A stretch of DNA of 64,000 nt from Methylacidiphilum kamchatkense Kam1. Its GTDB lineage: Bacteria; Verrucomicrobiota; Verrucomicrobiia; Methylacidiphilales; Methylacidiphilaceae. Below, piece by piece: positions 1,003 to 32,874 of the stretch. Under the pieces are notes generated by a model that made no database searches, was not told the origin of the DNA, and worked only from the letters and a program-made list of their open reading frames with translations. Location of the stretch: NCBI RefSeq assembly GCF_007475525.1, contig NZ_CP037899.1, positions 372,001 to 436,000 on the forward strand, written 5' to 3'. The first letter of the stretch is position 1, and the number at the start of each line of letters is the position of its first letter. The translations under genes were made by a program, and so were the position numbers.

Positions 1003-2123
1003 CGTATTTCTAGCCGAGATCTGATGGCTGATTCAGCAAATTCTCCAGGTATTACGGATGCCGAAAACCTATTAGTTTTAGCGTCCTTTTTTGCATGAAT
1101 AATTGTAAATTCAGTTTCTTTTGCGGATTCCTTCATGACATCGACAAAACTTTCAAGGCATTCGTAGCTGTGAGTTGTTGCAAAAACCTGTATTTGTCTT
1201 TGAGTGGTAAACTTGTTTAACAATCGCCAGAAACTCTTCATTCTGCTCCAGTGAATACCATTTTCTATTTCATCAACCAGAATGATCCCTTGTGAGAATC
1301 TAGAATCGGAAGCTATGAGAAAAATAGTAAGTGATTTGTGAGTACCAGAAGAATAAAGGGTCGAGGGAATTATTAAATCTTGACCCTCTATCTCAAAGAA
1401 AACAGCTCCTCTTGGAAAGTCTGGGGGTATCAATGGAAAAATATCTTTGATTTCAGGATATTCTTTTTTAAAAGCATCTAAAAAAACGCTCTCTTCTTTT
1501 TTTTCTTTAAGAGACGACAAAATTTTGGCAGACTCGGATGGATCATAAGTGACTGAGGAGCCAAAAAAGAATGTATAGGGCACAATTTCTTTGACCCCTT
1601 CTTGAATCATATCAGTATCAGTAAATCCCATCCAGTTTATTTCTTCAGTTTTATTATCTTCTTGGATATGCAATTCTAACCGAGGAAATACATGATCCGG
1701 ATTGTACACTTTCCTCACCTTAAGATTTTCAGGAGTATTTGGGGTAGAAATAGCATGTTCTTGAAAAGCAGCTGCATAGGGAAGAATGCTGGAATCAGGT
1801 GAAGGGTAAAATTTCAGCTCTACCCTCCAGTAAGCCGAATTTTTTTTATTAACCAGAAAAACAATATTAGAACTCGGGTCATTAAAATAGCGTTTTACAG
1901 AACTGGCAAAATAATCTTTTTGTAAGAATGATGGAGGAATGCGTTGCGGTGTTAACCACTCTATTGCTCTTGGGTTAGGCTTACAAGCAATATAAATAGC
2001 TTCAAGAATCGTCGTTTTACCGGCAGCATTATCTCCCGTGATAATATTTATTCTAGAGAGATCGTCTAAAGCAAGATCTTTAAAACAGCGAAAATTCGTT
2101 ATTTCCAGCGAATGAATCCTCAT
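999..2123 (-). CDS. AAA/ABC-type ATPase (AAA_15/AAA_21, OLD/AriA-like), first gene of the TOPRIM pair
   Basis: The protein has 374 residues. Visible motifs are Walker A GDNAAGKTT (30-38), an ABC-like signature SSGTHKS (258-264), Walker B IILVDEIENGIH (280-291) and an H-loop ATTHS (315-319). The start MRIHSLEITNFRCF is the typical beginning of the RecF/SMC/OLD-like ATPases that dimerise head to tail. No long coiled coil is present, so it belongs with the compact AAA_15/AAA_21 ATPases used in OLD, retron and PARIS modules rather than with RecN or SMC. The TOPRIM gene follows with a 4-base overlap. The likely function is ATP-dependent sensing that controls the TOPRIM effector. A housekeeping DNA-repair role cannot be excluded. 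Confidence 0.85.
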   Translation of the reverse strand: MRIHSLEITNFRCFKDLALDDLSRINIITGDNAAGKTTILEAIYIACKPNPRAIEWLTPQRIPPSFLQKDYFASSVKRYFNDPSSNIVFLVNKKNSAYWRVELKFYPSPDSSILPYAAAFQEHAISTPNTPENLKVRKVYNPDHVFPRLELHIQEDNKTEEINWMGFTDTDMIQEGVKEIVPYTFFFGSSVTYDPSESAKILSSLKEKKEESVFLDAFKKEYPEIKDIFPLIPPDFPRGAVFFEIEGQDLIIPSTLYSSGTHKSLTIFLIASDSRFSQGIILVDEIENGIHWSRMKSFWRLLNKFTTQRQIQVFATTHSYECLESFVDVMKESAKETEFTIIHAKKDAKTNRFSASVIPGEFAESAIRSRLEIR

Positions 2124-2224
2124 GCTCTTTCTTCGATAAGTTATACCTGATCTGTTTTTTAAAAAAGAAAGAAATTAACTTTATAAAGGCAAAATCTTCT
2201 CTTTTTTATGAACAGTAGCCTTGT

Positions 2225-2392
2225 TCATCCTTCCTTCGAAAGGCTTTGCCTAGGGGGTTGGCCTCTTTTGGAATATTCATTACTCATTTGGTTGAGATAC
2301 TCCACCTGATCCTTTGGAGTTGTTGTATGGGAGTCAGATCCTCGAGTTAGGCTTATGGACCACTTATGGGCGCGCAGGAAATTAGAGCAGTG
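2225..2392 (-). pseudogene. possible decayed gene fragment
   Basis: A 55-codon open frame between two stops has no usable start codon at its beginning. It encodes hydrophilic, protein-like sequence including the segment KDQVEYLNQMSNEYSKRG. This looks more like a piece of a real protein than random sequence, but the family is not recognised. It lies just upstream of the ATPase/TOPRIM pair and may be what remains of a neighbour. The call is weak. Confidence 0.2.
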
Positions 2393-2771
2393 TCAACAGG
2401 ACAGAGGGCCTTTCTTTTTCAAGCCATAGAGAGGAAAGGATAAGCTTAAGGAAGGTCGGCTTTATGTTGGAAAGCTTTATGACGAAATGCCACTCAATAC
2501 CAACGGGCTAAGTAATCCATTTATTTTCTCTTACACCTAGCTAGCTACCTAAAATTAAGCCACTAGTAATTTTTGTTGAATACTCCAGCATTTCCCCCTC
2601 CTCGCTTGGGCAGATGTCCCTACAAGCCCTCCTTGGATATAATTTCCCCAAAAAAAATCACGAATTAGATTTTTGGACCGGCTCTTTGCAGAAGCCAACC
2701 AGCAGCTCTTCTTTACTATCCCTCAAATTTGCCTAGCAGATGAGCCGATACTCTTTTACCAATGAGCTTGT

Positions 2772-2814
2772 AGCCAGCCTATTCTTAAGGAAAAGGCCAA
2801 AGAATAGGCTGGCT
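2772..2814. repeat. perfect 15-base inverted repeat (hairpin)
   Basis: The arms agccagcctattctt (2772-2786) and its exact complement (2800-2814) enclose a 13-base loop. A few further bases pair if a small bulge is allowed. There is no T-run on either side, so it is not a textbook intrinsic terminator. It lies about 55 bases beyond the end of the lipoprotein gene and could still stop or protect the galT-GH57 operon transcript. It could also be the end of a lost mobile element. Confidence 0.7.
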
Positions 2815-2868
2815 AGCTACATACCAAAACACCCAATTCCAATCTGGAAGGGTCAATAGCTTGCAGCA

Positions 2869-3327
2869 TTAGGGGACAACGAAAATCTTGCCTGTGTAAG
2901 GACAACGAACTTCCGTTCCTGGAGGGAATCCCCTAACATCCACCAACCCCGCGTCTGGAGCATAAGGGCTTTTTACATATCCAGGCTTTCCAGGGACTGA
3001 TATCCCTTTGGGATATTTACTTGTGGTTTGTTGTGCCTGCGAGCTTCCAGAAGATCCCCATGGTTTATATTCTCCAGAAACAGGAGGATTGGATGTAGAA
3101 GGACTACCGGCTGTGCTTTCTCCTGTTGTTCCAGAAGAACTGCTACCGGGCTGGGGTTCGTTTGCTTTTTCAGGCAATTTCCCAGCTTTAGCGCCTCTAG
3201 TTCCTTCTGATTCAATTTTTTTTGATTTATTAGAGCAAGCTAAAAAAGCCAATGAACAAGAAATGAGTAATAGCAATACTTTTTTCACCTTGACAGGAAG
3301 GCTACGAAACTTTTCAAAAAAATTCAA
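2869..3327 (-). CDS. putative lipoprotein with conserved C-terminal GxPPGTxVxCPYTGKxFxVP motif
   Basis: The protein has 152 residues. A basic N-terminus and a hydrophobic stretch end in FLAC around residue 31, which fits a lipobox. A low-complexity Ser/Pro/Gly/Thr linker (about 45-110) follows. The last 25 residues ([18 protein letters not shown], then KIFVVP) form a compact motif that I associate with envelope proteins of Verrucomicrobia and Planctomycetes. The start lies one base after the stop of the GH57 gene, so it is the last gene of the galT-GH57 operon. It is probably anchored in the outer or inner membrane with the small C-terminal motif exposed in the periplasm. The function is unknown. 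Confidence 0.65.
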
Positions 3328-3328
3328 T

Positions 3329-5371
3329 CTAGGAATTTAGAAATTTTGTAATTATTTTCAAAGTCATCTTTTCCCTAGGCTGCAGATGGAAAGATTTAAG
3401 GATCTCAAAAGCAGATCCTTGATAGTCTTTAGCGAATAATCCTCTTTCATAACTGACCGTATAGATCGGAAAATGATAAATTTGGACTGGTTCTTCTGGC
3501 ATAATCCATTGCCAAGCAAGATTTCTGGTCTTATCATAAATGGTCCATTCACTCACCTGCTCTTCTTCGAAAATCATGCCGGGGTTAAGTTTTTTATCCT
3601 TAATGAGGATATAACGGTCCAGGGAATCAACAGAAAGGATCGAATAATTGATTTCACAACAATAAAGAAGTTCTATTGGGAGGGTATCGTTATTAGTGAT
3701 GGTGTAATTCACATGAAGTTCTTCATCAGGAGTAAGAATGTATTCCTTTCTAATTGTGAAGTGGAACTTTTTGTTTATGAAATACAATCCTCCATTTCTT
3801 TCCAATAGAACGGATAGTCCCTTTGCATTCTGGGCGAGCTCCAGAATGGTGTAAGGCTGATTGACGAAATCCCCATATTCCAAAAATGAACTGTTAGCAA
3901 AATCATAGGCAGAAGTGGATAAAGGAACGAAATGATCTAGAAAGAGAGTCCTTTGATGCCAATCTTCGATATACATGTCTGGAGGAATGGGTTCAGGGAA
4001 ATAACAGGGATGTCGTTGTAAGGTATTGGCTAAGTTATAAGAGGTGGGCAGGAAATTAAACTCGGTAATGGAGCCACCATACAATGGTTCAATACATAAA
4101 GAACAGTGGGAAGAGCGGAGGAAAATTTCTGGAAACTTATCTGCATCAAAATCATTTTGCTCAATAGGCGGTAAAAGATGCTCTGCTTTTTCTTTAATCA
4201 TTTTCTCAGCGTTAAGAATATGATAAAAGGCTGAATCTCGAATATAATTACCAAAAAGACCGTCTTTGAAGGCATGCCAATACACTGTGTGTCCTTGACT
4301 TGCCAACAGACAGTCAAAGATTTCTTCCTGGAATTCCTTGGGCAATAATCGGATTTTGGCACTGACTTGAAGCATTCTTTTATGGATGTGATTAGCTTCA
4401 GGATACTTAGAGAGGAAAGTTAACCAGTGGCCTCCACGAAAAAACTTGAGGAATCTATCTGCATCGAATCTGACCTTTAACTCATTGAGTGCGGAAACGT
4501 AATCTAATGTGGCTTTATGCGGCAAGCAAAAAGGTTGTAGTTCTTTTCTCCCACCTGAAGGCAGGGTAATTATTGGCCAGCATCCATCGATGAATTCCGA
4601 TGGTAGTCTGGTTTGAATCCAAGAAGAGTTATTCTCGAGGTATTGTAACCAATCTTCCAGTCGACCTTTATGATAAATTTGCTCTCTGGTATCAGGCCAA
4701 AAACCGTACAGCTCACCATTTTGAGCAATGCAAAGAAGTTGCATGCCTTCCCTGTGGCTAATTTGGACGAATGAGGAATGGATATCTTTGATATCTTTAA
4801 AAGGAATTTCTTTTGAGAAGGATGAATGATAAGCAAACACATGAATGGCGTGCTGGTGGAATTGAGTAAGAAATGGTTGTCTGATTTCTGCCGGTGTTAT
4901 CCCCGCATTTTCAAAAAGACTGTCCTCTAAAATGGTATATTGATACCCAGATCGGCAGAGTAGCTCAACAAAATAAGGTTCCCATATTGATTCAGCTAGC
5001 CAAGCACCCTTAGGAGCTTGACCGAAGGTGTTTTTTAAAAACTGATTCAATTTTTCAAGCTGCAGCAAACTATCCTCATTGGAAATATAACAAAAGATGG
5101 GTTCATAAAATCCTCCTCCAAGAAGCTCAATCCGCTTCTCAGTGATCAATTTTTGAATCAGTTCTATAACCTCTTTTTCATTTTCTTGGAGATAGACTAG
5201 ATAGTTGCCGCTAAAATGGAGAGAAAGTCGGACTTGAGGGTGGTTCCTAATCGATTGAAGGAAAGGGAGGGTGGCCTTATGAGTAAATTTTTTCTTGGTT
5301 TCAGCAAAAACACCTGTCGGTTGATGAAAATGGACAACCCAAAGAATATCGATCTTTTTTAAATGAACCAT
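3329..5371 (-). CDS. glycoside hydrolase family 57 protein (4-alpha-glucanotransferase/alpha-amylase type), acid/base residue altered
   Basis: This 680-residue protein has the GH57 motifs HQP (16-18), GGGFYEP (85-91) and [10 protein letters not shown], with the nucleophile glutamate at about E127. Its long C-terminal part matches the DUF1925/DUF1926 beta-sandwich regions of the Thermococcus 4-alpha-glucanotransferase group. In that group the acid/base aspartate sits in a DDGEKFG motif. The equivalent stretch here reads QNGELYG (217-223), so the aspartate appears to be Asn218 (alignment from memory). The enzyme may be inactive, altered, or a regulatory partner of the upstream GH57 enzyme, whose frame it overlaps by 13 bases. 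No signal peptide is present, so it acts in the cytoplasm, presumably on glycogen or maltodextrins. Confidence 0.85.
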
Positions 5372-7515
5372 TGTTGTAACTCAAAATCCTCAGAAGGAAA
5401 TACGAAATCAATAGTCCCTCTTTCAGGATATCTTTCCAGGCTTAGATGTTCATGGTTAAGGATTCTTACAAAGAAACTAACTTGACTATTTTCTTTCCAA
5501 CCTATGGTCGCTACAGGAACAGCTAGGACAAAGAAATCATCCCAAAAGACCTCTATTGTTCCTCCCACAGGCTGAAAAATACCTGCACTGTCCATGGCTT
5601 CAAGTTTCTTATCCCATTGGTTGCCATCTTTGGCAATGCATTCGATTCTATTTATGGCCGGAGAGATAAAGTCAACGACCACAATTTCTGGTTTTGCTGC
5701 TAAATCTAACCGGAGATAAAAATTATTTTTATCGAAACCAAAGAACAGTTTTTTGCCAATCCGATTCGATTGGTACATAGCGGTTTGTTGAACCGAAATG
5801 TCAAGGAATCCGGCACCAACCCAATCAAAATAATTTTCGAGTCTTCCTGTTAATTTTGGGCTTATGTACAATCTGGGAAAAATATAAGGGACAGGGAGGG
5901 AAGGAACATTGATAGGTAGATCTAGATAAGGGGGTGGAGTGAAGCCTAAAAACCCATACACATTTTTAAGATGAGAACGGAAGAGCTCATCAAAGAGTTG
6001 ATCGGAATCAGTTGAAAAATCAGGACCATACCACCAGAACCAATCACTGCCTTCGGCAGCATAAAGACATTTCCAACTTTTAAGCTCAGAAGAATTCCCT
6101 TCCTTATTAGAATTTTTAGTAAGAAATTCTCTGGTTTTCCCCAGCCATTCCCAAGCTTTATTCTCCTCGCTATCTCCAATCCATATATCGAAATCAGCGT
6201 TGATCCATGAACCGGTATAAAGCTTGTAAACAGTAGTAGTTGGGGGATAGGTATCAAAATACTCAGAAGCAAGGGTTGTTCTTAAATTACGATGTTCAAC
6301 AAGTCCCCGATAAAAGGAACTAAGAAAAGCCTCTCCTCCATCGTTAAAAGACTCCCATGCATTTTCTCCATCCAAAGCTATAAGAATTGCCCCTTTTTTA
6401 GGATCAATATGTTTGCAGGTATTCTCAAGGCTATGGAGAAGAAAATTGGCCGCTTGTAATGGATCGTTTTGAGAAGCTTTGAATCCAATAAAATCCGACA
6501 GAGGCCTTTCCCTGAAGAGGGCACACAGAGAAGCCTCTGGCAACTCTACTCGCCAACCCTGGAAGAGAAGAAGATGATCTTCATGTTTTCCACGCCAGTG
6601 AGGATCAAGTTCAAGGCTACGGAAGAGAATGGATTCATCTGTAAAAAAGTAATCAAATCCTGCTTCTTTGAAAAGTGGAAGAAGTTCTGGACAGACGGAG
6701 CCTTCTGATGGCCAAACCCCACGGGCAGGTCTACCAAAAACACTCTTTATTTTTTCCTGACCCAGCTTCAGTTGGTTCAATGCGTCTTCGGGGGCTTTGA
6801 ATTGAGAGGGGAGATTGACATAGGGCATGCAGCGGCGCGCAAAGTTGGTGTCATAAATAAGAGGAAGAATAGGATGATAGTAGGGAGAGGTGGTGATTTC
6901 GATCTGGCCTCTTTCCTGTGCCATTTTATACTTTGGGATGATGGAAGAGAGGATGGCATGATGAATTTTCAAAAGCTCTTCTTTTTGCTCTTCGGTATAA
7001 TTTCCTCCCTGCTTTCTTAATTCGTTTAGAAAAGGATACTGCTTTCGGGCAGCATATCCGCACCAGACCAGATTATAAAATACTTGTATGTCTAAGTAGT
7101 CCTGAGGATTAAAGAGCGAAGTTAATTCTTCTAATCTTGCGTAATTAACTACCTTGCCTCTTCTTTGCAAGAGTTCATAGTAACGAGGGATTGGCCGAAT
7201 CAAAGTTTCATAATTGGCTTTGAAAAAATTTTCCAAAATCTTTTGTTTTTGAATCGGATTAAGTTCGGTTGCGGGGATTCTGGTTAAAATTTCAACGAAA
7301 TCTTTTGCTTCTTTTTGTACTAGTTTTTCAATCTGCTCGAGCAACACCGGTGTAAAATTAAATATCGTTTTGAGTCCAGGAAATCTTTCCATCATTTCCA
7401 ACATGTCCAGATAGCTATGAACCGAATGGAGCCTGACCCATGGCATAAGCGCCACATTGGTAGAATGATCAATGTAGTCAGGTTGGTGCATGTGCCAGAG
7501 AAGAAGAATGTTCAT
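5359..7515 (-). CDS. glycoside hydrolase family 57 alpha-amylase/amylopullulanase-like enzyme
   Basis: The protein has 718 residues. All GH57 landmarks are present: HMHQPDY (8-14), GQIEITTSPYYHPILPL (203-219), GVWPSEGS with the nucleophile E271, and ALDGENAWE with the acid D382. The segment YTGSWINADFDIWIGD follows, which is typical of the alpha-amylase/amylopullulanase group (COG1449). There is no signal peptide, so the enzyme is predicted to work inside the cell on alpha-glucans. The gene is 43 bases downstream of galT and overlaps the next GH57 gene by 13 bases, so the two amylase-fold proteins are made from one transcript. The catalytic residues are intact here, unlike in the neighbour. 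Confidence 0.92.
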   Translation of the reverse strand: MNILLLWHMHQPDYIDHSTNVALMPWVRLHSVHSYLDMLEMMERFPGLKTIFNFTPVLLEQIEKLVQKEAKDFVEILTRIPATELNPIQKQKILENFFKANYETLIRPIPRYYELLQRRGKVVNYARLEELTSLFNPQDYLDIQVFYNLVWCGYAARKQYPFLNELRKQGGNYTEEQKEELLKIHHAILSSIIPKYKMAQERGQIEITTSPYYHPILPLIYDTNFARRCMPYVNLPSQFKAPEDALNQLKLGQEKIKSVFGRPARGVWPSEGSVCPELLPLFKEAGFDYFFTDESILFRSLELDPHWRGKHEDHLLLFQGWRVELPEASLCALFRERPLSDFIGFKASQNDPLQAANFLLHSLENTCKHIDPKKGAILIALDGENAWESFNDGGEAFLSSFYRGLVEHRNLRTTLASEYFDTYPPTTTVYKLYTGSWINADFDIWIGDSEENKAWEWLGKTREFLTKNSNKEGNSSELKSWKCLYAAEGSDWFWWYGPDFSTDSDQLFDELFRSHLKNVYGFLGFTPPPYLDLPINVPSLPVPYIFPRLYISPKLTGRLENYFDWVGAGFLDISVQQTAMYQSNRIGKKLFFGFDKNNFYLRLDLAAKPEIVVVDFISPAINRIECIAKDGNQWDKKLEAMDSAGIFQPVGGTIEVFWDDFFVLAVPVATIGWKENSQVSFFVRILNHEHLSLERYPERGTIDFVFPSEDFELQQWFI

Positions 7516-26292: not shown

Positions 26293-27000
26293 CTAGCGAG
26301 AAGGGACCGATATGGGCTTGAATTCAAGAAAATATTGATAGGGTAAAAAACGGAACTCTTTGTCAAGACGAAAGCCTGCATCCTGGAAGTCTTTAATGAC
26401 CGCTTGAGCTGATAGTTTTATATGTCTTTTGAATCTTGCAGTGGCTGGGAAAAGACGTGGAGCATTAGGCTTGATGTCTATGACTACTATCTTTCCATTT
26501 TTTTTGAGTGCCGTAGCTAAGGCTTTGAGATAGCTGGGATTGTGAATATGATGATAGCTATTACAGAAAAAAATCAAATCCGCACGCTGCTTTTCAAGCC
26601 CAGGATTGTTTGTGGGCGATTTTCGGACTATAAGATTGTTTAATCCTTCCTTTTTTGCCCGTTTCTTTAAAAATCTCACCATCGATAATTCTCTATCCAA
26701 AGCTATGACTTTGCCTTGAGGACCAACAACGCGGGCAAATTTTACAGCAAAATATCCAGTGCCAGCTCCAATATCCACAACAGTTTGTCCAGGTTTTAAT
26801 TGGAGTGCCTGGATAACAGTTTGTGGTTTTTGCCATTTGTCCCTAGAAGGGGCATCAAATTGTTCTGCCCATAAGGCAGGCTCTTTGAACCTATATTCTT
26901 CTTGTTCCCTATTCGAAGTGGTGGCGTAGCCAGATTTGAGGAAACCAAAAAATAAAAAGCAAAGTAGCACACAAGAAGATCGTAAAAAAAGAGAGTTCAT
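26293..27000 (-). CDS. exported class I SAM-dependent methyltransferase-like protein
   Basis: The protein has 235 residues from the ATG at 27000. A longer frame would overlap the neighbouring regulator, so I rejected it. Residues 1-26 look like a signal peptide (hydrophobic core CVLLCFLFFGF, then SGYA). The Rossmann SAM-binding domain follows, with VVDIGAGTGYFAVKFA (about 73-88), VIALDREL and LIFFCNSYHHI. Family relatives are annotated as methyltransferase type 11 or UbiE-like. An exported SAM enzyme is odd because SAM is cytoplasmic. The helix may instead be a membrane anchor with the domain inside. It sits 26 bases downstream of a response regulator on the same strand. The substrate is unknown. 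Confidence 0.8.
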   Translation of the reverse strand: MNSLFLRSSCVLLCFLFFGFLKSGYATTSNREQEEYRFKEPALWAEQFDAPSRDKWQKPQTVIQALQLKPGQTVVDIGAGTGYFAVKFARVVGPQGKVIALDRELSMVRFLKKRAKKEGLNNLIVRKSPTNNPGLEKQRADLIFFCNSYHHIHNPSYLKALATALKKNGKIVVIDIKPNAPRLFPATARFKRHIKLSAQAVIKDFQDAGFRLDKEFRFLPYQYFLEFKPISVPSR

Positions 27001-27026: not shown

Positions 27027-27713
27027 TTATTTGATCCCAAAAAACTCGGCTTGACACCAACTGACTGCATAATGGACAAGCTCTTCGGTCGATTTAATTT
27101 TCAATTTTTCCTTGATTGAACTCCTGTAGGATTCGACAGTTTTAATACTAATATGAAGCTGTTCGGCAATCTGTCTGATGCCAAGACCTTTGCCTATCAG
27201 TTGGAAAATTTCAAATTCCCTGTTGCTTAGAAGCTGAGTGGGGTTATTTATTGTTTTTTGGTTCTTAGAAGAGATATTAGAAATAATTTCGTTAGAAACC
27301 CTTGGACTGACCGCTATTTCTCCCCGGGACACTTTGTAAATGGCCTCGATCAGTTTTTCAACTCCTTCAGTTTTCATTACATATCCTCTTGCCCCTGCTT
27401 TCAAAGCCCTTTCTGCATAAATCATTTCATCATGCATCGAAAAAACAAGATTGGAAACATTGGGATAAGCAAATCGAATATCTCGGATCAATTCTAAACC
27501 ATTTTTACCAGGCATCGAGAGGTTTATGATGGCTACATCGGGTAGTGTCTTGCCTATCTTTTCAAATCCATCGTAAGCATTGCTAGCTTCTCCGCAAACT
27601 ATGATGTTCTTCTCTTTACTTAGCAATTGAGCAATTCCTTCCCGAACTATTGGATGATCATCAACAATGAATACTTTAATTTTCTCTGTTCGTGTCTTAT
27701 TCTTGATTTCCAT
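27027..27713 (-). CDS. NarL/FixJ-type response regulator with Asn at the phosphorylation site
   Basis: About 228 residues. The receiver domain has the acidic pair in FIVDDHPIVREG. In the expected phospho-acceptor block the sequence is VAIINLSMPGKNG, so the usual Asp is Asn (codon AAC, residue 69 counted from the TTG at 27728). The lysine in GYVMKTE is kept. The C-terminal LuxR-type HTH (LLSNREFEIFQLIGKG, then ISIKTVESYRSSIKEKL) is intact. It probably binds DNA without classical phosphorylation. No sensor kinase is adjacent. I chose the ATG at 27713 over the TTG at 27728; GAGGAG lies between them. Confidence 0.88.
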   Translation of the reverse strand: MEIKNKTRTEKIKVFIVDDHPIVREGIAQLLSKEKNIIVCGEASNAYDGFEKIGKTLPDVAIINLSMPGKNGLELIRDIRFAYPNVSNLVFSMHDEMIYAERALKAGARGYVMKTEGVEKLIEAIYKVSRGEIAVSPRVSNEIISNISSKNQKTINNPTQLLSNREFEIFQLIGKGLGIRQIAEQLHISIKTVESYRSSIKEKLKIKSTEELVHYAVSWCQAEFFGIK

Positions 27714-28103
27714 TATCTCCTCAGACAATAGAAGTTATTTTCAAATTCAGCTATTTTTTTTTTTGATGCTCTCCCTTCTTTGACCATGAAAGATTGATCA
27801 AAAAATTCTTCTATCCTTTTTAACCAAAGAAGGTTGCAACGTTGTTTGTTTTTGTTTTCATGAAACTAGACATACTATTAAGTATTTAAAGTAGTATAAA
27901 TGCAACTATGTTATTACAGGAAAATGTGATGCAAAGTTCTTTTCTTTGATCTTAAAAACCCATACACTAATTCTCTTATACGGGAGTTTCTGCCTAACGA
28001 CTTTTTTCTGCGGTTTTTTATATTGGAGTATAAGAAAAAGGGAACGCTGAATAAAAAATAACAGCCATTTTTGATTCGGATTGTGATAAACTTAAGGATT
28101 TAG
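27714..28103. other. non-coding divergent region between response regulator and ubiX
   Basis: About 390 AT-rich bases with no plausible gene. They carry the promoters of the regulator (minus) and the ubiX-ubiA-mqnE group (plus). A loose inverted repeat is centred near 27885 (atacta ... tagtat). It could be an operator for the response regulator, but no second copy was found to support this. AAGGA precedes the ubiX start. Confidence 0.4.
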
Positions 28104-28658
28104 ATGAGAATTGTTATTGGAATCACAGGGGCTAGTGGGGCTATCTATGCTCAAAGATTACTCCATTTCCTAGCATCAACCGAACATGAAGTCCATGTTA
28201 TCATAAGCAATCGTGGCAAACAGGTGATCGGTCTAGAATTAGGCAGAAATCTTGAAATTCCTAAAAAATTTGGCTTATACAGTGATAACACAATGGATGC
28301 TCCCTTTGTCAGTGGTTCATCCAGATTCGATGCGATGGTTATTATTCCCTGCTCAATGGGTACGGTTGGTCGTATTGCTCATGGAATTTCTAATTCAACG
28401 ATTACACGCAGTGCAGACGTGTTCTTAAAAGAAAGAAGAAAGCTCATCTTGGTTATTCGAGAAACCCCACTCCATTTGATCCATCTTCGCAATCTTGCTG
28501 CTTTAACTGAGGCCGGCGCCTTAATCTTACCAGCCTGTCCCTCTTTTTATGGTCTTCCATCCAGCATCGAGGAGCTTGTTGATTCGGTCAACGCCAGGGT
28601 TTTAGATCATCTTGGTATAGAAAATTCTTTGTCAGTCCGCTGGAGAGAGCATTTCTAG
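28104..28658 (+). CDS. ubiX: UbiX-type flavin prenyltransferase
   Basis: A 184-residue flavoprotein that makes prenylated FMN for UbiD-type decarboxylases. The N-terminal signature VIGITGASGAIYAQRLL is diagnostic. IIPCSMGTVGRIAHGISN (FMN and prenyl site) and LVIRETPLHLIHLRNL follow. It stands directly before a UbiA-type prenyltransferase and mqnE, so its prenyl-FMN most likely serves the decarboxylase of the futalosine menaquinone pathway (not in this window). Confidence 0.94.
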   Translation: MRIVIGITGASGAIYAQRLLHFLASTEHEVHVIISNRGKQVIGLELGRNLEIPKKFGLYSDNTMDAPFVSGSSRFDAMVIIPCSMGTVGRIAHGISNSTITRSADVFLKERRKLILVIRETPLHLIHLRNLAALTEAGALILPACPSFYGLPSSIEELVDSVNARVLDHLGIENSLSVRWREHF

Positions 28659-30811: not shown

Positions 30812-32874
30812 ATGCCAAAATCATCGATGCCATTTCCAAAAATGAAAAAAAATACGTCCTCAAGAAGGAATGATCCATCGAAAAACGAACCCGGTGGAGA
30901 ATCCAATTGGAAAGGGTTTCTTTTTTTTCTAGTATCCATTCTCTTTGTGGTCCTTGCGTATTATGTTAGTGTCAATCAGGGGCCAGGGATAGAACAGAAA
31001 TCCCTTCCTCAATTAACACGACTTTTGGACCAAGGAAGGGTAAAGTCCTTAGTGTTTGTACGAGATACCTCTACCGGTCAGACTTTTCTGGAGGGAAGGT
31101 ATACACGACCTGCAGGGCCAACAGAAAACGCTGAAATCATTGTCCCTTTTAGAACTGTTGTTGATTTAGAGTTTAACAGAGACTTAAAACAATTTCTTGC
31201 CTCTAAGGGCTTTCCTGAGATTGATGTCAAAGTCGTTCATAATTTTTGGGGACAGGCTTTTTTAAGTGTGCTGCCTTTTTTGCTCTTTATATTGGCTCTC
31301 TATTTTCTTTTTCGCCAACAGATCCGGATGGCTGGAAGAGGTGCTTTTAGTTTTGGAAAGAGTCGAGCCAGACTTTTAAGTGGTGGTAAAACAAAGGTCA
31401 CTTTTAAAGATGTGGCTGGAGTCGAAGAGGCAAAAGAGGAGGTCCAGGAATTAGTAGAATTTCTTAAGGACCCCAAGAAGTTTCAAAAACTTGGGGGAAG
31501 AATTCCTAAAGGGGTTCTAATGGTAGGCCCTCCAGGAACAGGCAAGACCCTCTTAGCAAAAGCTATTGCAGGGGAAGCGGATGTTCCTTTTTTCAGTATC
31601 AGTGGTTCTGACTTCGTTGAAATGTTTGTGGGGGTTGGAGCTTCGCGAGTTCGTGATATGTTCGAGCAAGCCAGGCGTCATGCACCTTGTATTGTGTTCA
31701 TTGATGAAATTGATGCCGTAGGTCGAGCCCGTGGCACTGGACTTGGAGGTGGGCATGATGAAAGGGAACAAACATTAAATGCCCTTCTTGTGGAGATGGA
31801 TGGTATCGAATCGCAAGAAGGAGTCATTGTCATTGCGGCAACGAATAGAAAGGATGTTCTAGATCCTGCGTTGTTGCGGCCTGGAAGATTCGATAGGGAA
31901 GTGCGCGTCAATCTTCCTGACATTCGTGGACGGGAACAGATTCTTAGAGTGCATGCACAGAAAATTAAGCTTTCTAAGAGTGCAGATCTGACCGCTCTGG
32001 CAAGAGGAACTCCAGGATTTTCAGGAGCCGAACTGGCTAACTTAATCAATGAGGCGGCTCTTATTGCAGCTAAGAAAGGCAAAGAGAGCGTGGACCAGCC
32101 TGATTTAGAAGAAGCCAGAGATAAAGTTAGATGGGGAAAGGAGCGGAGGAGTCTTGCGATGAGTGAAGAAGAGCGTAAGACGACCGCTTATCATGAGGCC
32201 GGTCATGCCGTACTTAATGTCCTGTTGGAAAATACCGATCCTATCCATAAAGTTACCATCATTCCCAGAGGCCCGGCTCTTGGTGTGACAATGATGCTTC
32301 CGGCTTCTGATAAATACAATGCCCGAAAGAAAGAGGTCCTTGATGATCTTTGTGTGGCAATGGGAGGAAGAGTGGCTGAAGAGGTGTTTCTTGGAGATAT
32401 TTCCAGTGGGGCCAGTGGGGACATTCGCCAAGCCACATGGTATGCTCGCAAGATGGTTTGTGAATGGGGAATGAGTGAAAAACTGGGGATGGTTCATTAT
32501 TCCGATGATTCTTCAATGGTTTTTCTTGGGAGAGAGCTGGGAACTGCTAGGGGTATAGTGAAGCGACTGCACGTGCTATTGACCATGAAGTCCAACATTT
32601 TATTCAGACAGCTTACGAAAAGGCTAAAAGGATCATTCTTGAGCATAAAGACAAAGTAGAAGCATTAGCTCAAGCCCTTCTCGAATATGAGACACTCAAT
32701 GCCGAGCAGGTGATTGAGATTGTTAAAACCGGGAAGATGACCAATCCGCCACCAAAGAATACACCCTCTTTGCCCTCTAACAATGTGGCTGAGTCGACGC
32801 AGAATCCTACGCGACAAGAAGAAGCAAGAAAAAATGATGGGCTTTTACCCGGTCTTGAAGGAGCTCCCGCTTGA
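30812..32874 (+). CDS. ftsH: ATP-dependent zinc metalloprotease FtsH (one apparent frameshift)
   Basis: About 687 residues after restoring one G in the G4 run at 32550-32553. Without it the protein would end at 32659 in a non-homologous basic tail. Two membrane helices (about 36-54 and 150-168) flank a periplasmic domain. The AAA domain has Walker A GPPGTGKT (239-246), Walker [10 protein letters not shown] (293-301) and the second region of homology. The zinc protease motif HEAGH is at 461-465, with downstream [11 protein letters not shown]. The restored frame continues [14 protein letters not shown] and ends with a Pro/Asn-rich tail. FtsH degrades misfolded membrane proteins and regulators such as LpxC. 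A terminator hairpin follows. Confidence 0.92.

Follow-up and report, generated by a model that had tools for sequence, protein, structure and literature searches.

The gene at 27027..27713 on the minus strand of the 64,000-nucleotide stretch analysed here (the window) raises the question of how a response regulator can work once the phospho-acceptor Asp of its receiver is replaced by Asn. It encodes a NarL/FixJ-type protein of 228 aa, as defined by its open reading frame, its Pfam matches and an AlphaFold2 model. With ORF and frame verified, it starts at the ATG at 27713, just 3' of a ribosome-binding-like GAGGAG, and stops at the TAA at 27027-27029; a longer form starting at the TTG at 27728 is possible. 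In the context DVAIINLSMPG, where beta-3 ends and the phospho-acceptor is expected, the residue is Asn64, encoded by AAC at 27522..27524 (minus strand) according to codon check, alignment and model. The Asp-to-Asn replacement reported in the initial annotation, as a codon AAC and not an ambiguous call, is thus borne out. The same holds for its claim that the other receiver residues and the LuxR-type helix-turn-helix (HTH) are intact: the alignment, with positions checked, shows that D18, D19, S92 and K114 are kept, together with Tyr111 (K-3), Pro68 (D+4) and Gly72 (D+8).

Pfam places Response_reg (PF00072) at residues 14-125 (4.8e-25, 88.3 bits for a cut-off of 30.2) and the GerE HTH at residues 161-216 (3.1e-17, far above cut-off). 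This architecture, with the receiver at the N-terminus and the LuxR/GerE HTH after it, is that of the NarL/FixJ type according to Pfam, PDB matches and model, the best PDB sequence matches being 5hev (E 1.2e-32) and 1a04 (NarL; E 3.5e-31). No named NCBIfam equivalog is found: the 25 families shown (of 85) all stay below their curated cut-offs; the best score is that of MctR, with 152.2 bits for a cut-off of 300. The AlphaFold2 model, built from 27 aligned sequences (mean pLDDT 89.0, pTM 0.79), consists of a standard (beta-alpha)5 receiver and an HTH. Its pocket has the usual receiver geometry, with residue 64 after beta-3 (60-63), S92 at the end of beta-4 (87-92) and K114 after beta-5 (108-113).

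Each of the five Methylacidiphilum genomes carries three related regulators and each of the seven genomes of a second genus of the family carries one, and no related regulator is found at E 1e-30 in the single genome of a third genus. One paralog of the Asn regulator, hereafter kinase-linked, sits after a PAS-HisKA_3-HATPase gene, a kinase that also precedes the second-genus copy; the other paralog, hereafter pmo-linked, adjoins pmoC, pmoA and pmoB. No kinase gene is present among the called neighbours of the Asn regulator. Apart from the PAS-HisKA_3-HATPase kinase, the genome contains no HisKA_3 match; it has ten HATPase_c matches in all, and its four GerE domains belong to the three regulators and to one protein without a receiver match. 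Upstream of pmoC, by the second paralog, lies a palindrome, GAAG-N2-(C/T)GGTTGGC-N-TACCG-N-CTTC (G000:C1:1508861-1508885; L087/L209), which is a possible operator. With at most three mismatches it is kept in 4 of the 13 family genomes (G000, G008, G009 and G010) and in none of G011 and the other eight, and its reversed pattern, used as a control, gives two matches, both in G009; the palindrome is not found upstream of the Asn regulator.

Of the 87 ORFs in the alignment of homologs, which come from 80 loci, 81 carry Asp at the phospho-site and 6 carry Asn. The six Asn rows (the N clade) come from five distinct genomes, as Methylacidiphilum sp. Yel (L009), whose ortholog is 99% identical, and G011 (L064) are one genome with identical proteins. 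Conservation in close relatives had been proposed as the check on this residue, and Asn is present in all five Methylacidiphilum genomes, encoded by AAC in G000, G009 and G011 and by AAT in G008 and G010. Because it is found throughout the genus through two different codons, a strain-specific change or a sequencing error is ruled out. Both D-type paralogs in each genus genome and all seven second-genus copies carry Asp. Outside the family, 64 phylum loci (from a sample of 387 genomes, with at most seven candidates scored per genome and matches at E 1e-55 or better) give 63 Asp, 1 Glu and no Asn; the Glu-bearing relative (L162) has also lost one residue of its acid pair. The objection that relatives have Asp, which had been named as decisive against an atypical regulator, therefore fails within the genus, whereas all but one of the farther relatives examined do have Asp.

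Eleven receivers of the genome lie above the Pfam cut-off and the Asn64 regulator is the sole one without Asp, the Asp of one of them (L106) having been read by eye. Below this cut-off and outside the window, a second degenerate receiver (L109, G000:C1:646314-646568; 22 bits) gave no alignable receiver automatically and was read by eye; it lies in a protein of 229 aa with an OmpR-like C-terminus, judged by eye, and without acid pair, which adjoins a LuxR-HTH protein without receiver match. Within the N clade, the acid pair DD is retained in all rows, and the conserved Lys is lost in one of the five genomes, as K114M in the G008 ortholog (L065), a change that would fit a loss of phospho-chemistry.

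The selection acting on the gene was assessed by simple Nei-Gojobori estimates of dN/dS, those obtained with G008 and G010 being mostly saturated at synonymous sites and not used. With two close species, G011 and G009, the dN/dS of the regulator is 0.034 and 0.021, in each case the lowest value among the genes compared in its surroundings (14 with G011, 5 with G009); the D-type paralogs have values of 0.062 and 0.024 with G009, the kinase-linked gene set being taken without its last genes. Between G000 and the distant species G010/G008, the identity of the Asn regulator is 0.84/0.84 in the receiver and 0.97/0.95 in the HTH, that of the pmo-linked paralog 0.90/0.86 and 1.00/0.98, and that of the kinase-linked paralog 0.93/0.85 and 0.98/0.97. 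As its receiver identities are close to those of the D-type paralogs, the Asn receiver is not decaying much faster. These results show that the Asn regulator is under strong purifying selection and is maintained much like its phosphorylatable paralogs.

The recognition helix reads VESYRSSIK in the N clade and VEAYRASIK or VEAYRGSLK in the paralogs. S195 and S198 are confined to the N clade among the rows compared (N clade, 17 other family rows and 12 Limisphaerales-type rows) and align, by PDB sequence match, with NarL positions that contact bases in the NarL-DNA structure; the base-contact residues of NarL and VraR aligned to them differ from the Ser of the Asn regulator. Because these two positions became Ser, the DNA targets of the Asn regulator would differ from those of both phosphorylatable paralogs.

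Upstream of the gene, an 18-bp element (27899..27916; plus strand AATGCAACTATGTTATTA) is conserved in all five genus genomes, without mismatch in four and with one in G009, three of the five upstream regions coming from close relatives. With at most two mismatches it has one match per genome in the five genomes; its reversed pattern also matches once, in G009, so that its uniqueness is not free of chance. It lies in an intergenic region shared with a divergent UbiX-like flavoprotein gene (28104..28658, plus strand), 163-185 nt from the regulator ATG and 156-570 nt from the divergent gene. The near-constant distance to the former and the variable distance to the latter suggest that the element belongs to the regulator, and it is likely a candidate part of the promoter or operator of this gene, as judged from its sequence conservation. 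It is not found near either paralog with at most three mismatches.

The origin of the N clade was addressed with a main tree of 38 proteins, in which the Yel/G011 genome is included once, and with a 70-row tree which, like the comparison of positions, includes both rows. In the 38-protein tree, the N clade is supported by 100/100 and all family copies together by 100/99. The other family copies (pmo-linked, kinase-linked and second-genus) form a group (95/92) that leaves out the N clade, whose branch is longer (1.07). The 70-row tree is in agreement, with 98/94 for this non-N grouping and 93/95 for the family. The N clade differs from the 17 other family rows at fifty positions; at nine of these (21, 42, 61, 71, 80, 95, 97, 98 and 217) it agrees with most of the 12 Limisphaerales-type rows, so that it is the other family copies that share a derived state. 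The pattern looks like that of an old duplication followed by loss in the second genus. A younger, genus-specific duplication is not strictly rejected by the AU test when the N, pmo-linked and kinase-linked copies are grouped (p = 0.062); pairing the N clade with the pmo-linked copies gives 0.067 and with the kinase-linked copies 0.047. A transfer from Limisphaerales-type bacteria is not supported (AU p = 0.003 for the N clade with those rows).

Our results point, with a probability that we put at about 0.52, to a genus-wide and actively maintained aspartate-less NarL/FixJ-type factor that would work without Asp phosphorylation and would be governed by its own abundance. The proposal of an atypical regulator lacking the classical phospho-site is thus supported by the conservation of Asn64 in the genus and by the intact landmarks and HTH; the two modes of action suggested with it, constitutive activity or control by a ligand, find no such support, as Asn is no charge mimic and nothing points to a ligand. 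We infer another mode of switching: the receiver would act as a dimerisation and folding module, and activity would be set mainly by the amount of protein, via the conserved upstream element and possibly through autoregulation. The factor would probably descend from a kinase-coupled NarL-type regulator of the family that was duplicated long ago, with a single loss of the phospho-site, and would now stand as a branch of its own, next to the kinase-coupled copy and the one by the methane monooxygenase operons. Some points speak against this reading. DD, S92 and Tyr are kept, and Lys in four of five genomes, which is more than a pocket-less receiver would strictly need. Furthermore, since Asp to Asn usually imitates the unphosphorylated and often inactive form, activity without a partner is not guaranteed.

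Such a partner could be one of the D-type paralogs, the Asn regulator forming heterodimers that would retarget the paralog or hold it inactive, by analogy with WhiI-BldM. We regard this alternative, the foremost one, as tentative and doubtful. It would suit a genome with three NarL-type receiver-HTH proteins and a single HisKA_3 kinase, and the Asn regulator has HTH identities of 0.68 and 0.72 and receiver identities of 0.58 and 0.51 to its two paralogs. Published expression data can also be considered if G009 is taken as M. fumariolicum SolV. In G009, carB (tag 0408) and folP1 (tag 0503) bracket the Asn regulator, whose interpolated tag is 456.9, compared with 0457 for citB2; for the other two regulators, interpolating along the longer distance as far as folP2 misses by 46-51 tags, and the local figure alone was therefore used. 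Taking G009 as SolV, citB2 would thus be the Asn regulator, as identified by position.

The SolV transcriptome tables list three NarL/LuxR-type regulators, mxaB, citB1 and citB2, with citB1 (Mfumv2_1799) adjoining pmoCAB1 (1794-1796) (PMC3404531, PMC5623727); beyond the citB2 entries in these two tables, no published description of the N clade was found. The tables give for citB2 RPKM values of 394 at mu-max, 200 under N2 fixation and 239 under O2 limitation in the 2012 study, and of 137 with H2/NH4+, 133 with CH4/NO3- and 307 at mu-max in the 2017 study (PMC3404531, PMC5623727). For citB1 they give an increase from 1,760 to 5,611 and 4,679 (2012) and from 1,063 to 7,016 and 4,126 (2017) (PMC3404531, PMC5623727). 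The pmo-linked citB1 is thus up under O2 limitation or N2 fixation and citB2 down to 0.43-0.61 of its mu-max value, and a precedent for heterodimers exists in BldM-WhiI, both described as NarL/FixJ orphans in the available parts of the literature (PMC4125116, PMC12632262). However, the citB2 changes are small and near the range of 0.5-2 that the authors indicate, in the portions available, for housekeeping genes, and neither paralog has a counterpart of the conserved 18-bp element nearby with at most three mismatches.

An unlikely alternative is that the Asn regulator is gated by a ligand or by redox state, for instance through Cys220. This residue, which with Cys40 makes up all the Cys of the protein, is present in all six N-clade rows (five genomes) and absent from the 17 other family rows and the 12 Limisphaerales-type rows, and pseudo-receivers controlled through Cys (RitR, HP1021) or through ligands (JadR1, RedZ) appear in the accessible text of a recent survey (PMC12632262). 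In the model, however, C220 belongs to the last helix (209-225), whereas the examples named use the linker or the alpha1-beta2 loop, and the genomic context suggests no ligand. Phosphorylation at another residue, or a kinase-dependent control without phosphorylation, appears very improbable: Ser66 and Ser92 lie by the pocket and a suitable kinase exists in trans in the genome, but nothing points to such a site and the gene of this kinase is found beside the D-type paralog.

There is as little room for a post-translational deamidation of Asn64 to Asp, which would make the protein phosphorylatable with time or heat. It would agree with the thermoacidophilic nature of the genus Methylacidiphilum and with the retained acid pocket, Ser and, in four of five genomes, Lys. 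A receiver with Asn at the phospho-site can moreover revert rapidly to Asp, according to the consulted section of PMC4395418. Selection nonetheless keeps Asn through a synonymous change although Asp is one base away, and Lys is also lost in G008. Finally, a decaying or erroneous copy, to which the loss of the key residue, K114M in G008 and the longer branch could point, is hardly credible and is contradicted by Asn in 5/5 genomes, dN/dS values of 0.02-0.03 and HTH identities of 0.95-0.97 to distant species.

The next gene, on the same strand as the regulator (26293..27000, minus, with the start taken at the ATG at 27000), encodes a putative exported SAM-dependent methyltransferase, according to Pfam and neighbour comparison and with a signal peptide judged by eye; it is probably co-transcribed with the regulator in its own genome. 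The adjacency noted in the initial annotation is confirmed and is found in four of the five genus genomes, but not in G009, where the two genes are about 42 kb apart, so that a methyltransferase acting as a necessary partner is rejected. The functional link between the two is weak because of this distance and because the methyltransferase evolves faster (dN/dS of 0.29, compared with 0.03 for the regulator).

Further observations concern this neighbourhood. A second methyltransferase homolog, of 44-48% identity, is present elsewhere in each of the five genus genomes, and for an enzyme with an apparent signal peptide a supply of SAM outside the cytoplasm would be unusual. In G009 (L083, G009:C1:461000-479000), the downstream neighbourhood of the regulator is replaced, and the segment has at its borders a pair of related ORFs (cluster C40) that by eye resemble transposases. 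An ftsH-like gene of the window (30812-32659) encodes 615 aa, compared with 686-699 aa for its counterparts in the other four genomes of the genus. Aligned with two of these, it differs by one base in length near its 3' end, with a shift of frame that is either a real change or a sequencing error.

The regulator can be compared with several known systems. It shares with aspartate-less receivers, as these are presented in the available parts of two studies (PMC4395418, PMC12632262), a PF00072 match without phospho-Asp, Asn64 being found in 5/5 genomes; it keeps the rest of the active site and is thus a mild case, and nothing excludes it from the group. Asn is the second commonest replacement in such receivers (16%), after Glu, in the figures available from Maule et al. 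(2015; PMC4395418), and most of the described aspartate-less or pseudo-receivers are kinase orphans in the corresponding portion of Bourret et al. (2025; PMC12632262). Like WhiI and BldM of Streptomyces, in the sections of PMC4125116 at hand, it is a NarL/FixJ-type orphan with an atypical pocket and a D-type relative in the same genome. WhiI lacks one Asp of the pair and the Lys and is not described in those sections as lacking the phospho-Asp (PMC4125116), whereas here the Asp is lost and the pair kept. The degenerate acid pair and lost Lys of the WhiI type are not found, with DD in all N-clade rows and Lys lost in one genome of five.

RitR of Streptococcus pneumoniae has an output domain of the OmpR type. 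It resembles the Asn regulator by its own Asn at the phospho-site (Asn53) but differs from it in the acid pair, which includes a Lys, and at the Thr/Ser position, which is Asp, as far as the available parts of PMC4395418 describe it. Its redox Cys lies in the linker, according to the relevant excerpt of PMC12632262, and the linker of the Asn regulator (about 131-158) contains no Cys. E. coli NarL and VraR, whose structures are solved, have the same architecture and, unlike the Asn regulator, are phosphorylatable. The N clade is thus new as a clade, and the aspartate-less NarL-type regulator is known as a kind.

What turns pseudo-receivers on or off is presented as an open question of the field in the accessible part of PMC12632262. 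The clade offers a compact natural comparison for this question, as one small genome holds three paralogs, one kinase-linked, one adjacent to pmo genes and one without phospho-Asp and otherwise little changed. One speculative and rather improbable scheme is that the three regulators, all derived from one NarL-type regulator, form with the single kinase a switch for methane monooxygenase isoenzymes: the kinase-linked copy would sense, citB1 would drive pmoCAB1 at low oxygen, and the Asn copy, insensitive to phosphorylation, would act as a counterweight to them: its level would drop when theirs goes up, and it would set promoters or share them through competition or heterodimer formation. If the Asn regulator does not have a role in pMMO control, it would be one more well-kept pseudo-receiver; if it does join this control, it would bear on the choice of monooxygenase isoenzyme with oxygen supply.
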